This document shows, piece by piece, positions 1,185 to 58,204 of a stretch of 64,000 nucleotides of DNA. Location: the NCBI GenBank assembly GCA_024280295.1, contig JAJRQK010000016.1, positions 1-64,000 of the forward strand, in the 5' to 3' direction. The notes beneath the pieces are model-generated. The model had not been told where the DNA came from, ran no database searches, and saw nothing but the letters and a program-made list of their open reading frames with translations. The DNA is from Bacteroidota bacterium (lineage in GTDB: Bacteria; Bacteroidota; Bacteroidia; Flavobacteriales_D; Crocinitomicaceae). The translations under genes and the position numbers were made by a program. Position 1 is the stretch's first letter. Each line of letters begins with the position of its first letter.

Positions 1185-1204
1185 TGTCAGTTCTTTAACA
1201 ATAG

Positions 1205-1320
1205 ACTTATGAAGAAAGGTGGAGGGATAGGCCCTGCGAAACCTTGGCAACCTACTCAATGTGTAGTAAAATTGAAAAAGGTGCCAAATCCAGTCTCAAT
1301 GAAAATTGAGTAGAGATAAG
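1205..1320 (+). promoter_or_regulatory. SAM-I (S-box) riboswitch
   Basis: The segment shows the S-box core: GGTGGAGGGA, then GGCCCTGCGAAACC, then TTGGCAACC, and further on AAGGTGCCAAATCC, which are the SAM-binding and kink-turn parts of SAM-I. P1 is closed by CTTAT (1206-1210) with ATAAG (1316-1320), P3 by CTAC/GTAG around 1252-1265, and P4 by CTCAAT (1295-1300) with ATTGAG (1305-1310) across a GAAA loop. It precedes split methionine synthase, so high S-adenosylmethionine should lower expression. No intrinsic terminator is visible between 1321 and the start codon at 1366, so control of translation is more likely than attenuation. Confidence 0.9.
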
Positions 1321-1365
1321 TTTGTGATTGATAATCTTCACTCTTCTTCGTATAAATACATAAAT

Positions 1366-2370
1366 ATGACAGATCTACATAAGATACTGCAAGAGAGAAT
1401 TCTTGTCCTAGACGGAGCGATGGGGACAATGATTCAGCGGCATAAATTAGAAGAAGACGACTTCCGAAAAGGTTGGTTTGAAGATCATCCTTCATCCTTA
1501 AAGGGGAATAATGACTTGTTATCACTCACTAGACCTGAGATTATTCGTGAGATTCATTCCGAATATTTCGAAGCAGGTGCAGATATTGCAGAAACAAATA
1601 CATTTTCTGGAACAACAATCGCTCAAGCTGATTACGGATTGGAAGATGCGGTGTATGACATCAATTTCCACAGTGCAAAAATAGCACGAGAAGTTGCCGA
1701 TGAGTTTACTGCTCGTGAGCCAAATAAACCTCGATTTGTTGCAGGGTCAATGGGACCTACCAACAGAACAGCGTCGATTTCTCCAGATGTGAATGATCCA
1801 GGATTTCGTGCGATCACTTTTGAGGAGTTACTCGTAGCCTATAAACAACAAGCCTTGGCACTACTAGAAGGCGGAGTTGACTTGTTGCTCGTTGAAACAG
1901 TTTTCGATACATTAAACGCGAAGGCAGCACTGTTCGCAATTGAAGAGGCATTTGATGAATTTGGGAAAAAGGTTCCAATTATGGTTTCTGGTACGATTAC
2001 AGATCAAAGTGGTCGAACATTGACAGGACAGACAACAGACGCTTTCTTGATCTCAGTTTCTCATATGGATTTGTTGACTATAGGGTTGAATTGTGCCCTT
2101 GGGGCTTCAATGATGCGCCCATATTTACAAATTTTGGATAAAAATGCTCCTTTTGGTGTCAGCGCTCATCCAAATGCAGGATTACCGAATGAATTTGGAG
2201 AATATGAAGAAACCCCTGAATTGATGGCTGAGCAAATCAAAGAGTTTTTGGATGAAGGTTTGGTGAATATTATTGGAGGTTGTTGTGGAACGACTCCTGA
2301 ACACATTAAAGCAATAGCTGATCTTGCAGTTAATTACGAACCACGAAAAAGAGAATTGCATGAGCAATAA
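1366..2370 (+). CDS. metH: Cobalamin-dependent methionine synthase, homocysteine-binding half (MetH N-terminal module)
   Basis: 334 residues forming the homocysteine S-methyltransferase barrel that binds homocysteine through zinc. The zinc cysteines are visible: C243 in GLNCALG and C306-C307 in [10 protein letters not shown], offset by four from E. coli C247/C310/C311. The opening [13 protein letters not shown] is typical. I chose the ATG at 1366; the upstream TTG at 1306 lies inside the riboswitch P4 stem. The stop overlaps the start of the second half by 11 bases, so the two are translationally coupled. With the downstream 890 residues the total is 1224, close to E. coli MetH (1227), so this is a split enzyme, not a truncated one. 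Confidence 0.95.
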
Positions 2371-5032
2371 GGCTACGCTAAAATTATCTGGACTTGAACC
2401 GTTAATTGTAACGCCAGAAAGTAATTTTGTGAATATTGGTGAACGAACAAATGTAACTGGTTCACGCAAGTTTTTGCGATTGATCAAGGAAGAGTTATTC
2501 GATGAGGCATTGAGTGTTGCTCGTGAACAAGTTGAGGGAGGAGCGCAAATCATTGATATCAATATGGATGAGGGAATGATTGATGGGGTTGAGGCCATGG
2601 TTCGTTTCTTAAATCTTATTGCTGCTGAACCTGATATTGCACGAGTGCCCGTGATGATAGATAGTTCTAAATGGGAAATCATAGAGGCTGGATTAAAATG
2701 TATTCAAGGAAAGGGAATTGTGAATTCAATCTCTCTCAAAGAAGGTGAAGAACAATTCAAAAACCGAGCAAAGAAAATTAAGCGTTACGGTGCTGCAATG
2801 ATTGTGATGGCATTTGATGAAGATGGGCAAGCAGATAGCTACGAGCGTAGGATTGAAATTTGTGAACGATCTTACCGAATTTTAGTTGATGAGGTTGGTT
2901 TTCCACAAAATGATATCATCTTCGATCCAAATATTTTCCCAGTAGCAACAGGAATGGAGGAGCATAATAACAATGCACTCGATTTCTTTAATGCAACAAA
3001 ATGGATTCGTGATAACCTTCCCGGTGCTCATGTCAGTGGTGGAGTTTCTAACGTTTCTTTTTCTTTTAGAGGGAATAATGTGGTTCGTGAAGCCATGCAT
3101 GCCTCGTTTTTATACCATGCGATTCGCAATGGAATGGACATGGGGATTGTGAATCCATCGATGCTGGAGATTTACGATAATGTCGATAAGGATTTAATGA
3201 CTCATGTAGAGGACGTTTTACTAAATCGTCGTGATGATGCAACTGATCGACTTTTGGAATTTGCGCAAACTGTCACTGGTGAGGTTAAGAAACGTGAGAT
3301 TGATCTCTCTTGGCGTGAAACGAATGTGAATGAACGACTTTCCTATTCATTGGTAAAAGGTCTAACTGACTTTATCGTCGAAGATGCAGAAGAATGCAGG
3401 CAACAATTTGATCGAACAATAAGTGTTATTGAAGGTCCTTTGATGGATGGGATGAACGTGGTTGGTGATCTTTTTGGGAGTGGAAAGATGTTTTTACCTC
3501 AGGTTGTTAAATCAGCGCGTGTAATGAAAAAGGCTGTTGCTTATTTATTGCCATTTATTGAAGATGAAAAGGGTGAGGGGGAGAGTACTTCAGCAGGAAA
3601 GGTATTGATGGCAACAGTCAAAGGTGATGTGCATGATATAGGAAAGAACATAGTTGGAGTTGTCCTAGGATGCAACAATTATGAAATTATTGACCTCGGT
3701 GTTATGGTTCCGGCCGACCGTATAATTAGAGAGGCAATAGAGCAGAAGGTTGATGTTATCGGGTTGAGCGGGTTAATTACTCCGTCTCTCGATGAGATGG
3801 TAACAGTTGCCAAAGAAATGGAACGCGCGAACCTGTCTATTCCACTATTGATTGGTGGGGCAACTACCTCAAAAGTTCATACAGCTGTGAAAATTGATGA
3901 GCATTTCACAATGGATCAAGTAATTCATGTTTTAGATGCATCAAGATCTGTTACAGTTGTTGAGCAATTGCTAGGATCAAAAAAAACCGATTTTATCTTG
4001 AAGACTCAAGAAGAGTACAAACGTGTCCGTGAACATCACGCTAAACATCGAGGGCAAAAGCAAATGTTAAGTCTAGAACAAGCGCGGAAGAATAAATTTC
4101 AAATCGATTGGGAAAATCAGATAATTGAATCACCGAAATCACTTGGTGTAAGCAATGTGTCAGTGACTCCTAAAGATTTAATCTCCTTTATTGATTGGAC
4201 CCCCTTCTTCAGAACATGGGAGTTGCATGGTAAATACCCAGCTATCCTCAATGATAAAACGGTTGGAAAAGAAGCGACGAGTTTGTTCAAGGATGCGCAA
4301 GAGATGTTGGATAAGATTATCTCTGAAAATTGGTTGACATACAAAGGTGTTGTTGGTATCTTTCCGGCTGAAGCGGTTGGAGATGATATTGTGATTTACT
4401 CTGATGAATCAAAATCTGATAGTGCGTACATCCAAAAAAGTATGCGGCAACAATCAAAAAAAGCTCCAGGGGTTCCAAATATTGCTTTGGCGGATTTTAT
4501 CGCACCAAAAGAAACAGGAATTTCTGATTACATCGGTGGATTTGTAGTTACTTCAGGTCATGGAGTAGAAGAGCGAGCGAAAGAATTTGAAGCGGATCAT
4601 GATGATTACAATTCTATTCTACTAAAGGCACTGGCGGATCGTTTGGCGGAAGCTTTTGCGGAGTATTTGCATAAAAAGGTTCGTACAGAAATTTGGGGCT
4701 ATGCAATCGATGAGCAATTCGATAACAGTGCGCTCATCAAAGAAAAATACCGTGGAATAAGACCCGCTCCAGGTTATCCTGCTTGTCCAGATCATACTGA
4801 GAAAATCGGATTGTTTGAACTATTAGATGCCACCGCTCGTACAGGTGTTGAGTTAACAGAAAGTCTTGCAATGATGCCAGCGGCAAGTGTTTCAGGATGG
4901 TATTTTGCAAGCGAACATTCTAAGTACTTTGGTGTTGGTAAGATTAATGAAGATCAAGTTAAATCATTAGCAGATCGAAAGAACATGGAGTTGCATGTAA
5001 TGGAACGCTGGTTATCTCCAAATATTCATTGA
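2360..5032 (+). CDS. metH: Cobalamin-dependent methionine synthase, folate/B12/activation half (MetH C-terminal module)
   Basis: 890 residues covering the remaining MetH modules in order: methyltetrahydrofolate (pterin) binding ([14 protein letters not shown] near residue 25), the helical cap and B12 domain ([12 protein letters not shown] with lower axial ligand H425, equal to E. coli H759 minus 334; also [13 protein letters not shown] and GGATTS), and the SAM-dependent reactivation domain ([15 protein letters not shown] and [13 protein letters not shown]). It makes methionine from homocysteine and 5-methyl-THF. The start at 2360 ([11 protein letters not shown]) sits inside the last codons of the first gene; a longer reading from 2324 has no family support. 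The activation domain requires a flavodoxin or reductase that is not encoded here. Confidence 0.95.
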
Positions 5033-5203: not shown

Positions 5204-7930
5204 ATGATGAAAAAATTACTTTTTACAATTGCATGTGCAATGGTTGGCTCAATGGTCAACGCACAGGTAATTAACAGTTTTCCTTTTGTGGAAGACTTCG
5301 AATCGCAAGTAACAGGTCCAACTGGATGTGGTCCAACTTACTCAACAACAGGTAATACCTGGCAGAACGGTAATGATCCCGCTTTAGCACTTCCGCTAAT
5401 CGCAACGCACTTTGTGGATTGGACGAATGATGTTAATGGAACAAGTTCTTCTGGAACAGGACCATCAGCTGATCACACACTAGGAACAAGTTTAGGTAAA
5501 TACATGTATTGTGAAACTTCTTGTAATGGAACAGGATACTCAAACTCTGAGTTTGACTTGGTAAGCCCGTATATGGATTTTACTGCACTCACAGCTCCAG
5601 GGCTTGATTTTTGGTATCACGCATTTGGTACCTCGATGGGTAACCTTACTGTTAAGGTTCAAGTTGGCGCGTTAGGAGTATGGACAAATGTTGCAGGACC
5701 TATCACCGACAACTTAAACACTTGGCAACAAGCAATAGTACCCCTAATTGCTTATGCAGGTATGGATTCTGTGCGTGTCCAAATGAATTATATCTCCGGA
5801 ACTAGTTTTGGTGGGGATTTCGCATTAGATGATATCACGATCTTTCAACCAGCAAATGTAGATCTTCAAGCAGTTTCAGTGGATAGTATCCCAGGAACGG
5901 GATGTGGACTTGGATTAGAGAATGTTTGGGCAACGATTGATCAAATTGGAGCGGTTGGACTAATTGCTGGAGATTCAATTTTCGCAAACTACTCAGATGG
6001 AATAACTACAATTAACGATACAATTGTACTAGCTGGATTATTAGGGCCAGGGGCAACATACAATCACATGTTCTCTTCACCAGTTGATTTTAGTATTATT
6101 GGAACTTACAACATTACTGTTTCTGTTTCTAATTCTCAAGATCCAAATAATGGTAATGACACAACTTATGCTACTTTATCGAGTATACCGTTAATCAATA
6201 CTTTCCCTTATGCTGAAGGCTTTGAGGCTGGAGCAGGAGGTTGGACAATGACTAACGTTACAAACAGTACTTGGGAGTTAGCTACACCAAGTAATACAAT
6301 TATTAACTCTGCTGCTACAGATTCTATGGCATGGGTAACTAATGCAACTGGTTTATACAGCTCTAATGAGGATGGATATGTTGAAAGTCCTTGTTTTGAC
6401 TTTAGCACATTAGACAGTAGTGCTGTTATCTCAATGGATGTTTGGTGGGAATCAGAATTCTCTTGGGATGGTGCTAATGTAACAGCATCGACAGATGGAG
6501 GTGTAACATGGAACCTTGTAGGAAACAATGGAGACCCAACTAACTGGTACACGGACAACACAATTAACGGAAACCCTGGAGGGTTTGGAGAAGGTTGGAC
6601 AGGTAGAAATGGTTCAGGTTCAAATGGATGGGTTACAGCTCACCACCCAATAGGGAATGGACTAGCAGGTCAGTCAAGCGTAATGCTTCGTGTAAACTTT
6701 GGTTCCGATGGGTCTGTTCAAGATGAAGGATTTGCTTTTGATAACTTCCAAATTGGTTATCCTGTACCATTAGATACTTTAATGGCAGATTTCAGTGGAT
6801 GTGGTCCTTTTATGACTGCTTATGGAAGTGCAGGCACTTATGCTTGGGCATCTCAAGATACTTCAACGTTAGTTGTTACTCCTATTGATACTACAATGAT
6901 AGGTATGCGTCCATTCAATAATACAGGACTGACAGATACTACGTTCAATTTAATTGTGACATTCACAGATTACCTCGGATGTGAAACAATTGACACAACG
7001 CTAGTAACTATCGTTCCAACTCCTTTGGTAACAATAGAAGTTGATACAGCAATTTGTGTAGGTGGAACAGCAATGTTCTCAGCGCAAGCTGGAACTAACT
7101 ATGCATACATGTGGTCAGGTGGTTCTACTGCAATGACAGCTACATACTCAACAGGAGGAATGATTGGTGTCACCGTTACAAATACGATCTCTGGTTGTAC
7201 TGTTTCGGATTCATCACTTATCACTGTAGCTACAGTCGTCGATCTTCCATTAACAACTGCTAACGTTTGTGCGGGTGATTCATTGTTACTTGATGCAGGT
7301 GGGCCGTTCACAACATATATGTGGTCAACAGGTGCTACATCACAAGTTGTTGCTGCTTACACAGTTGGGACATACGTTGTAACTGCAACTGATTCTATTG
7401 GATGTATTTCTATGGATTCAACGGACATCACGACTAGTTTACCAACTCCTGCAATTACTGGATTAGTTGATACTATTTGTGCTAATGGTTCATTAACTTT
7501 AGATGCTGGTGCTGGATTTAGTTCTTATTCTTGGACAACTTCTGGAACTGCTCAAACTGAAACAATCAGTGGTGCTTCATTGCCGTTAGGTGATAACACG
7601 GTAACGGTAACAGTAACAGACGGAAACGGGTGTTCTAATACTGATGCTGTAACATTCAATATTGATGGATGTGCTGGAATTGATGAATTGAATGCGCTTT
7701 CAATGAGTATTTACCCGAACCCATCAACTGGTGAGTTCAACTACTCAATTGACAACATGACTGGGTCGATCACTATGATGATTACTGATCTTTCTGGTAA
7801 AATTGTTGATGCAGGAACTATCACTTCTGCAAATGGAATATTTGATCTTTCACCTTACCAAGCTGGTACTTACATCTTGAAACTTCAAGCTGGAGATGCA
7901 GTTAGTATCGTTCGTTTAGTGAAGAACTAG
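5204..7930 (+). CDS. T9SS-exported surface protein with MAM-like and Ig/PKD-like domains
   Basis: 908 residues. A signal peptide (MMKKLLFTIACAMVGSMVNA) is followed by two MAM/jelly-roll-like modules, each opening with an FPxxExFE motif (about residues 25 and 330) and each with an F(A)xDDI/DNFQI strand near its end. A series of Ig/PKD-like repeats follows (DTAICVGGTAMFSA, NVCAGDSLLLDAGGPFTTY, DTICANGSLTLDAGAGFSSY). The last ~75 residues are a type A sorting domain: IYPNPSTGEF, a central ITDLSGK strand and a terminal YILKLQAGDAVSIVRLVKN. It is therefore probably exported by the Sec and type IX pathways and anchored or released at the surface. Ligand unknown. Monocistronic, with its own terminator. 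Confidence 0.88.
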   Translation: MMKKLLFTIACAMVGSMVNAQVINSFPFVEDFESQVTGPTGCGPTYSTTGNTWQNGNDPALALPLIATHFVDWTNDVNGTSSSGTGPSADHTLGTSLGKYMYCETSCNGTGYSNSEFDLVSPYMDFTALTAPGLDFWYHAFGTSMGNLTVKVQVGALGVWTNVAGPITDNLNTWQQAIVPLIAYAGMDSVRVQMNYISGTSFGGDFALDDITIFQPANVDLQAVSVDSIPGTGCGLGLENVWATIDQIGAVGLIAGDSIFANYSDGITTINDTIVLAGLLGPGATYNHMFSSPVDFSIIGTYNITVSVSNSQDPNNGNDTTYATLSSIPLINTFPYAEGFEAGAGGWTMTNVTNSTWELATPSNTIINSAATDSMAWVTNATGLYSSNEDGYVESPCFDFSTLDSSAVISMDVWWESEFSWDGANVTASTDGGVTWNLVGNNGDPTNWYTDNTINGNPGGFGEGWTGRNGSGSNGWVTAHHPIGNGLAGQSSVMLRVNFGSDGSVQDEGFAFDNFQIGYPVPLDTLMADFSGCGPFMTAYGSAGTYAWASQDTSTLVVTPIDTTMIGMRPFNNTGLTDTTFNLIVTFTDYLGCETIDTTLVTIVPTPLVTIEVDTAICVGGTAMFSAQAGTNYAYMWSGGSTAMTATYSTGGMIGVTVTNTISGCTVSDSSLITVATVVDLPLTTANVCAGDSLLLDAGGPFTTYMWSTGATSQVVAAYTVGTYVVTATDSIGCISMDSTDITTSLPTPAITGLVDTICANGSLTLDAGAGFSSYSWTTSGTAQTETISGASLPLGDNTVTVTVTDGNGCSNTDAVTFNIDGCAGIDELNALSMSIYPNPSTGEFNYSIDNMTGSITMMITDLSGKIVDAGTITSANGIFDLSPYQAGTYILKLQAGDAVSIVRLVKN

Positions 7931-8510: not shown

Positions 8511-8582
8511 CTAACTCGACAAACACCTGTTGCTTAAAATTTATAAGTATGTAACAAGATTAGGTAAAAGTTATTATAAAAC

Positions 8583-8683
8583 AGTAGAGCGACTCGGGCG
8601 AGTCGCTCTACATAACCTAACCTAACCACTATTCACTGAAAAAGACCTCTAGTTTGATATAATATCTTACTGTTTCAATCTTT
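8583..8683 (-). ncRNA. Candidate small RNA ending in a strong GC-rich hairpin
   Basis: A good minus-strand promoter at 8690-8720 points into about 100 bases without a usable reading frame. The stretch ends in a perfect 13-bp hairpin (GTAGAGCGACTCG at 8584-8596 with its complement at 8599-8611). On the minus strand the hairpin is followed by TGTTTTATAATAACTTTT, a plausible though imperfect U-tract. Just before the hairpin the RNA would carry GGTTAGGTTAGGTT (near 8614-8628). Promoter, short body and terminator together suggest an independent RNA. Alternatives are a leader for the decayed gene downstream, or a small palindromic repeat element. Confidence 0.4.
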
Positions 8684-8689
8684 ACACTA

Positions 8690-8720
8690 CAAATATAAGG
8701 ACACTTCTTCGGTTTTACAA
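8690..8720 (-). promoter_or_regulatory. Minus-strand promoter upstream of the candidate small RNA
   Basis: On the minus strand TTG (plus coordinates 8718-8720), a 20-base spacer and TATATTTG (8690-8697) fit the Bacteroidota promoter consensus. No intact gene lies downstream for more than 600 bases. Confidence 0.5.
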
Positions 8721-8727
8721 ACTTAAG

Positions 8728-9185: not shown

Positions 9186-9650
9186 TTAAGAAATGCGTTT
9201 ATCTTCAAATTTTGTAAGTAAAGCATTCGTTTGAACGATTAGTTTTTTCTGAAAAAAATTCGTTCCTCCGAAAATTAATCCCTTCACTCCTAGTGCTTGT
9301 TTCGCCCAGGAGTATAGGTTGAAGTGATCGGTGTGCTTGATTATTTTACCATCCTGAAACTCGAATTCAGCATAGATTTTGTTGTGAACTTTTCTGCCTG
9401 TTTTAGAGAATGTGTAATGTGCTTCCCAGCGTACGGAGCCAGATTTTTCATTGAAAGATAATTCAGAGAATGCAATCTTTCGTTCTCCATCAATTTCACA
9501 GAACATTCGCCACATGTTTTTCGCACGTTCACCTTCCAATTTCCCGAATGCTGGATCTTCGAAAGTGATGTCATCATGATAGCAGTTGACCATTTTCTCT
9601 CCATCATTCTCTTGAAAGGCTTGGTAAAATGATTCAATGAGTCCTTTCAT
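9186..9650 (-). CDS. NTF2-like / SnoaL-like domain protein
   Basis: 154 residues with the one-domain NTF2/SnoaL fold pattern: an N-terminal helix IESFYQAFQENDGEKMVNCYHDDITFEDPAFG, a central WEAHYTFSKTGRKVHNKIYAEFEFQDGKI strand pair and KHTDHFNLYSWAKQALG. Members include polyketide cyclases, isomerases and non-enzymatic ligand-binding proteins, so the activity cannot be named. It starts 4 bases after the RND permease stop and is probably the last gene of the efflux operon. The extra C-terminal tail (about 35 residues after LYSWAKQALG) is common in Bacteroidota homologues. Confidence 0.75.
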   Translation of the reverse strand: MKGLIESFYQAFQENDGEKMVNCYHDDITFEDPAFGKLEGERAKNMWRMFCEIDGERKIAFSELSFNEKSGSVRWEAHYTFSKTGRKVHNKIYAEFEFQDGKIIKHTDHFNLYSWAKQALGVKGLIFGGTNFFQKKLIVQTNALLTKFEDKRIS

Positions 9651-41369: not shown

Positions 41370-41405
41370 AAAAGGTCGTTTTTACTTTAAAACGACCTTT
41401 TTTTG
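41370..41405 (+). terminator. Rho-independent terminator
   Basis: A 12-bp perfect stem AAAGGTCGTTTT (41371-41382) / AAAACGACCTTT (41389-41400) with loop TACTTT-like, followed by TTTT. It ends the small lipoprotein gene. Its tail lies just before the thioredoxin-like gene. Confidence 0.92.
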
Positions 41406-58101: not shown

Positions 58102-58204
58102 TTAATAATAAATCAAAGGGGTATCCTAACGATCTTAATGATCACTAGGAAAGGTTGTCGAAGGAAAAGCCTTAATTCATAACCACCTCTTTAAAATTGT
58201 AAAA

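Follow-up and report, generated by a model that had tools for sequence, protein, structure and literature searches.

Few small RNAs (sRNAs) of Bacteroidota have been characterised. Those described include structured RNAs such as 6S-flavo, Flavo-1, Bacteroidales-1 and other Rfam RNAs (in the part of PMC2864571 that concerns them), and the conserved sRNA Rfp18 of Flavobacterium psychrophilum, which acts on protease mRNA levels and, in the portion of PMC9723704 used here, is said to carry its pairing region in a third stem-loop; Rfp18 is likened to the RNA reported below by description only. The published case nearest in layout is FopS/GibS of Bacteroides thetaiotaomicron. In the relevant sections of PMC11697453 and PMC7366714, these are intergenic sRNAs with paralogs and a canonical promoter, in which a long conserved unpaired stretch is followed by an intrinsic terminator; relatives occur in a phage, and the RNAs are bound by the RRM protein RbpB. 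The R1' seed of FopS blocks start regions, and a FopS model is stated to have been deposited (both from the section of PMC11697453 on FopS), and B. thetaiotaomicron has no obvious Hfq or ProQ according to a passage of PMC7366714.

A 64-kb stretch of DNA from a Crocinitomicaceae bacterium (the window) was analysed, and the minus-strand segment 8684-8577 is very probably a real, free-standing sRNA gene that has not been catalogued. As far as the published descriptions go, the predicted RNA shares with FopS/GibS an unpaired conserved stretch followed by a terminator, a promoter, paralogs and phage relatives, and the short words AUAGU, UUAG and AGGUUA are common to both. It differs in that a 5' stem-loop precedes the conserved core, in the bacterial family, and in copy number (12–15 for FopS in Bacteroides, one or a few per genome here); whereas FopS/GibS are bound by an RRM protein, here it is the RRM genes that co-occur with the core. 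Membership of FopS/GibS by sequence failed, as the likeness to the consensus printed in the source was not significant for the window: local alignment with the R1/R1' seed gave a p of 0.13, and a variant from Fluviicola was marginal (p 0.011, with mononucleotide shuffles and post hoc). A phylum-wide search for intermediates with a FopS-type pattern matched 4 of 395 genomes, the window's own included, versus 4 genomes for the reversed control; the pattern deviated by one base from the spacing in FopS, and the test is therefore a weak one.

Rfam release 15 yielded no match to the sRNA at the gathering score, either for the window or for seven copy-bearing loci, and at E up to 10 there were seven sub-threshold matches only (best E 0.12, to rli37). 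An S4-Flavobacteria ribosomal protein leader at 58153-58184 (+) of the window scores above the gathering score. We found no description of this RNA in the open-access literature, nor any work there on a Fluviicola sRNA or on noncoding RNA of Crocinitomicaceae; on paralogous Bacteroidota sRNAs the FopS paper (PMC11697453, consulted in part) was the only one found, and the repeat string of the core was met only in Daphnia telomere work.

Anatomy and conservation of the predicted gene

The predicted promoter is of the Bacteroidota housekeeping type and lies at 8690..8721 on the minus strand (TTTG at 8721-8718, a 20-nt spacer and TATATTTG at 8697-8690), bearing out the promoter-like start on this strand that the earlier note had proposed. 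In F. psychrophilum, the sigma-A -7 box is given as TAnnTTTG in the pertinent part of PMC9723704. The 5' end was estimated from the promoter, which yields a predicted sRNA of about 108 nt (8577..8684, minus strand); the interval proposed earlier also took in the promoter. The stretch is free of reading frames, as had been claimed: no ORF of at least 50 aa overlaps 8583-8721. Folding of a 121-nt RNA was better than that of 195 of 200 shuffles (z −2.3).

The transcript would begin with a 5' stem-loop (8642..8682, minus strand; outer stem AAGATT/GGTCTT), followed by a near-invariant core, CUUUUUCAGUGAAUAGUGGUUAGGUUAGGUUA (8613..8644, minus strand). The first bases of the core overlap the 3' arm of the 5' stem and the rest is unpaired in the consensus; GGTTAGGTTAGGTTA occupies 8627-8613 on the minus strand. 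The terminator hairpin directly follows (8584..8611, minus strand). It had been described as a perfect GC-rich hairpin of 13 bp; it is perfect and G+C-rich, and a drawing with 13 bp and a 2-nt loop is possible, but it folds with 12 bp and a loop of 4. The U tract, TGTTTTAT (8576..8583, minus strand), is weak yet passes the terminator scan, for which 1.0 chance site is expected across the 1.9 kb scanned. Only two perfect stems of at least 12 bp occur in the window, and this hairpin is the only G+C-rich one; none was found in 15 first-order Markov controls of 64 kb. The other stem, at 41370-41401, has 13 bp, is A+T-rich and has a loop of 6.

Alignments of the relatives show four blocks, namely the TAnnTTTG box, the 5' stem-loop, the core UUUUUCAGUGAAUAGUGGUUAGGUUAGG and the terminator. 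Terminator sequences are unrelated between subfamilies while the core is kept. Over 28 sequences of the genus, 97.9% of the cells pair in a structure derived from the same alignment on which it was tested, with changes on both sides at 7 of 17 pairs; none of 500 shuffles was equally good, and structures slid along the alignment were far worse. The 5' stem-loop has 96.4% of its cells paired and the terminator hairpin 98.7%; in the hairpin, both partners have changed at 5 of 11 pairs. The covariance check suggested for the hairpin thus returned compensatory changes, and did so in both stems.

Statistics of the flanks were taken from 76 distinct bacterial copies with full flanks, picked by the 15-mer GAATAGTGGTTAGGT, so that identity within that 15-mer is by construction. 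Outside it, UCAGU is conserved at 89–96% per base and AGGUU at 86–97%. A terminator lies directly 3' of the core in 75 of the 76 copies versus 3.9% of 1520 control positions; in the sole exception (L160) the hairpin is present and the U tract is broken. In the interval −80 to −38 relative to the core, 53 copies have TAnnTTTR (3.1% of the 1520 control positions) and 47 have TAnnTTTG (1.4%); no TAnnTTTR box was found at promoter distance in the remaining 23. The core contains a repeated UUAGG-like word, with one to three GGUUA units per core.

With the 161-nt query, matches were obtained in 30 of 34 genomes of the genus (the window's own genome counted) and in 0 of 26 outside it. For G001, G014 and G032 the match is just 22–28 nt long; the whole layout is still visible in the aligned loci of G001 and G014, and the G032 match belongs to a tandem class linked to SCFA_trans (see below). 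As to the genomes missed, G026 keeps a diverged copy, hairpin included, in the interval from metH to the RND gene, the contig of G006 ends right after metH, no copy was seen near metH in G024, and the metH fragment was not found in G013. A 21-nt core, with up to 2 mismatches, occurs in 70 of 399 genomes of the order (1 of 399 for the reversed pattern); by a tally made by hand, all 70 are among 217 genomes of the same family, in 9 genera, versus 0 of 182 genomes of other families. None was found in the sampled genomes of genus g24.

In GTDB contigs, the exact 19-nt core is present in 67 stretches, mostly titled Fluviicola, Crocinitomicaceae, Taishania, Flavobacteriales or Flavobacteriia, and exact cores are also found in records titled Fluviicola chungangensis and Taishania pollutisoli, both of them named strains. 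The phylum as a whole was sampled via the FopS-type pattern only, so that the case for the exact core being absent outside the order depends on the GTDB contig scan. Relaxing the core to two mismatches in 28 chosen genomes of the family gave 38 matches versus 77 for the reversed control, and by eye a terminator stood right after the site in 0 of the 20 matches listed. One record titled Glaciecola amylolytica (L050, CP034120.1) carries a Fluviicola-like sRNA copy and, within 7 kb, a metH 73% identical to that of the window; its title looks wrong, or the record mixed. In the predicted sRNA gene, a promoter-like start, folded ends and a near-unchanging middle are kept across related aquatic bacteria.

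Neighbourhood, paralogs and phage copies

Many copies follow a co-oriented efflux gene of the RND type (ACR_tran), are convergent with metH, or both. An RND gene is found within 1.3 kb in 28 of 69 distinct copies with enough upstream sequence, and metH within 4.5 kb in 34 of 63 with enough downstream sequence; of 62 copies testable on both sides, 19 have both genes and 38 at least one. In the window, metH is separated from the sRNA by a gene for a T9SS-sorted protein (5204-7930), and the RND gene by a SnoaL-like gene (9186-9650). The match of the window's metH (2324-5032, plus strand; 902 aa) to the methionine synthase model is confined to the later part of that model, and a SAM riboswitch (1204-1322, plus strand) is located about 1 kb upstream of the gene.

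The hairpin region has just one other copy in its own genome (G000:C60:29028), which rules out the dispersed repeat that had been named as a possible refutation. This second copy has a shorter core, and no TAnnTTTR box was found for it. Matches to the 21-nt core number at most 2 per genome, and most genomes have one or two exact copies. In G025 and G020 there are additional copies that combine a shortened core with a hairpin, G025 having a few such short-core copies. Paralogs lie about 5–6 kb from a short-type RRM gene on the same strand in L200 (G020:C4, 206745 and 213064) and in G025:C52 (104226 and 109389).

A tandem class has two cores in L041 (5637, 5845), three in L066 (5444, 5676, 5863), two in L037/L072 (L072:6779) and one in L091 (6428-6446, minus strand). 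In the three loci with a flank long enough, the cores precede a co-oriented gene for a short-chain fatty acid transporter (SCFA_trans), named by Pfam in L066. In this class the core sits close to the presumed 5' end, with an extra hairpin ahead of the terminator. Copies in tandem also occur in L096 (7486, 7687); there and in L066 they are ~190–230 nt apart, each with a terminator of its own. The element TTTGGCAC (GGCAC) is found upstream of 6 of 8 tandem-class cores, with no GC at −12; we take it to resemble the −24 element of sigma-54 promoters.

Three exact 17-nt patterns gave seven stretches in all in IMG/VR. On six viral contigs the core is followed at once by a hairpin and a T-rich tail (L135:7762-7778, L136:1773-1792, L302:4315-4331 and L304:3168-3184 on the minus strand, L137:1240-1259 and L305:266-282 on the plus strand); the seventh stretch (L303) was discarded as a chance match inside a polymerase-like gene. 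A tRNA-Met directly precedes the core in L304, a tRNA-Ser directly follows it in L136, and three tRNAs lie ~0.5–0.85 kb from it in L305; none was found on L135, L137 or L302. PHROGs matches were terminase, Erf and a RusA-like protein for L135, endolysin, exonuclease and tail families for L137, tail proteins for L302, terminase and polymerase exonuclease for L304, and one family of unknown function for L136; two L305 proteins gave no match. Among 50,697 named phage records the core had 14 matches (best E 0.9), taken as chance.

The small-RNA reading of the earlier note is supported by the promoter box, 5' hairpin, unpaired core and terminator, which are retained together in relatives. Its term orphan is only partly right because the family has paralogs and phage copies, and the trans-acting role that it suggests is likely.

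RRM proteins and target searches

Proteins with an RRM_1 domain are encoded in 32 of 34 genomes of the genus versus 6 of 23 genomes of other families. In a comparison of 36 hand-chosen genomes of the family, two RRM matches were obtained in every one of 18 genomes from eight core-bearing genera, and at most one in each of 18 from eight core-less genera; in G062, G097 and G112, which are within the former 18, the core was not found. The window's own genus (g1) breaks this pattern, 25 of its 34 genomes having one match, 7 two and 2 none. A tree of 20 RRM proteins separates a short type (MTNIFIANLDW) from a long type (MTSIFVAKLDF) with a support of 1.000. The short type is present in all 8 core-bearing genomes examined, three genomes of g24 have the long type only, and in g32 and g36 the short type occurs with no detectable core. 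The link between RRM proteins and the core is an association along a tree, not proof.

Near-complements of the core in the 34 genomes of the genus numbered 89 (sRNA copies included) versus 85 for the reversed control. Two such matches common to G020, G017 and G025 were rejected, being coding-like sequence without a terminator by eye. Of 664 start regions, from 800 kb of one relative, 100 paired with the core at −16 kcal/mol or lower, versus 86.5±15.4 for shuffled cores. The best single target site was also rejected: its duplex of −24.0 kcal/mol falls to −7.6 to −12.2 in seven other homologous matches. Such pairing tests are blind to a small or CDS-internal target set. The negative searches lean slightly towards protein binding and are still compatible with a small target set.

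Candidate modes of action

The features generally asked of a trans-encoded sRNA can be read in the family: its own promoter, an intrinsic terminator, no conserved coding frame and compensatory structure. The sequences themselves show conservation, paired structure, absence of coding, paralogs and phage copies; transcription, action in trans, protein binding and targets we infer. The sRNA would be transcribed from a housekeeping-type promoter and ended by the intrinsic terminator; as one of a family-wide set of sRNAs, it would hold an unpaired, near-invariant core of ~20–30 nt between hairpins of drifting sequence. The core may offer a seed to mRNAs, a docking site to a small RNA-binding protein with an RRM domain, or both; the mode of action would be much as for the FopS sRNAs and RbpB in Bacteroides. 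For this reading, a trans-acting sRNA with such a core, we estimate a probability of roughly 0.5.

A pure base-pairing sRNA, in which the core pairs with few mRNAs and no dedicated protein is needed, is a possible though less probable account. A long conserved unpaired core beside a terminator is the layout of FopS, as set out in the part of PMC11697453 on that RNA, and speaks for it; start-region pairing without excess, near-complements at the control level and the loss of the best duplex in homologs speak against it. That mRNA partners were not found, that the hairpins are free to drift and that the UUAGG-like word is repeated would all suit a protein decoy, in which the core does nothing other than titrate an RNA-binding protein, as CsrB titrates CsrA, and phage copies do likewise to the host. 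The RRM association and the phages that carry the core with the hairpin alone point the same way. Mostly one or two exact copies per genome are few for a titrating RNA, however, and GGUUA units differ in number (one to three); we regard a decoy as unlikely.

An ordinary terminator or attenuator of a neighbouring gene would explain the terminator hairpin, which does exist. It would leave aside the promoter box and 5' hairpin just upstream, which are conserved together with the terminator; moreover, no ORF of at least 50 aa lies between promoter and hairpin in the window, and the downstream genes are often convergent, for instance metH in 34 of the 63 copies counted above. This explanation is very improbable. 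For a small ORF or dual-function RNA with a conserved peptide nothing speaks beyond conservation itself, and it is hardly credible given that all three frames are stopped inside the core (TGA, TAG, TAG) and that the length of the 5' hairpin varies between relatives without regard to frame.

The trans-acting sRNA with an unpaired core may, more tentatively, be part of an sRNA system of Crocinitomicaceae type. A small RRM protein would read the near-invariant word; the sRNAs would be made from two promoter classes (housekeeping, and GGCAC sigma-54-like with tandem copies upstream of the short-chain fatty acid transporter gene); and different phages would use their own copies of the word and hairpin, two of which directly adjoin a tRNA gene, to steer the host's network or disarm it. 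Outside Bacteroides, the family would offer a compact set of sRNAs whose core is near-invariant, for which there is a candidate RRM partner and of which phages carry copies; with it, a direct test would become possible of whether RRM proteins serve sRNAs throughout Bacteroidota and whether phages take advantage of this.
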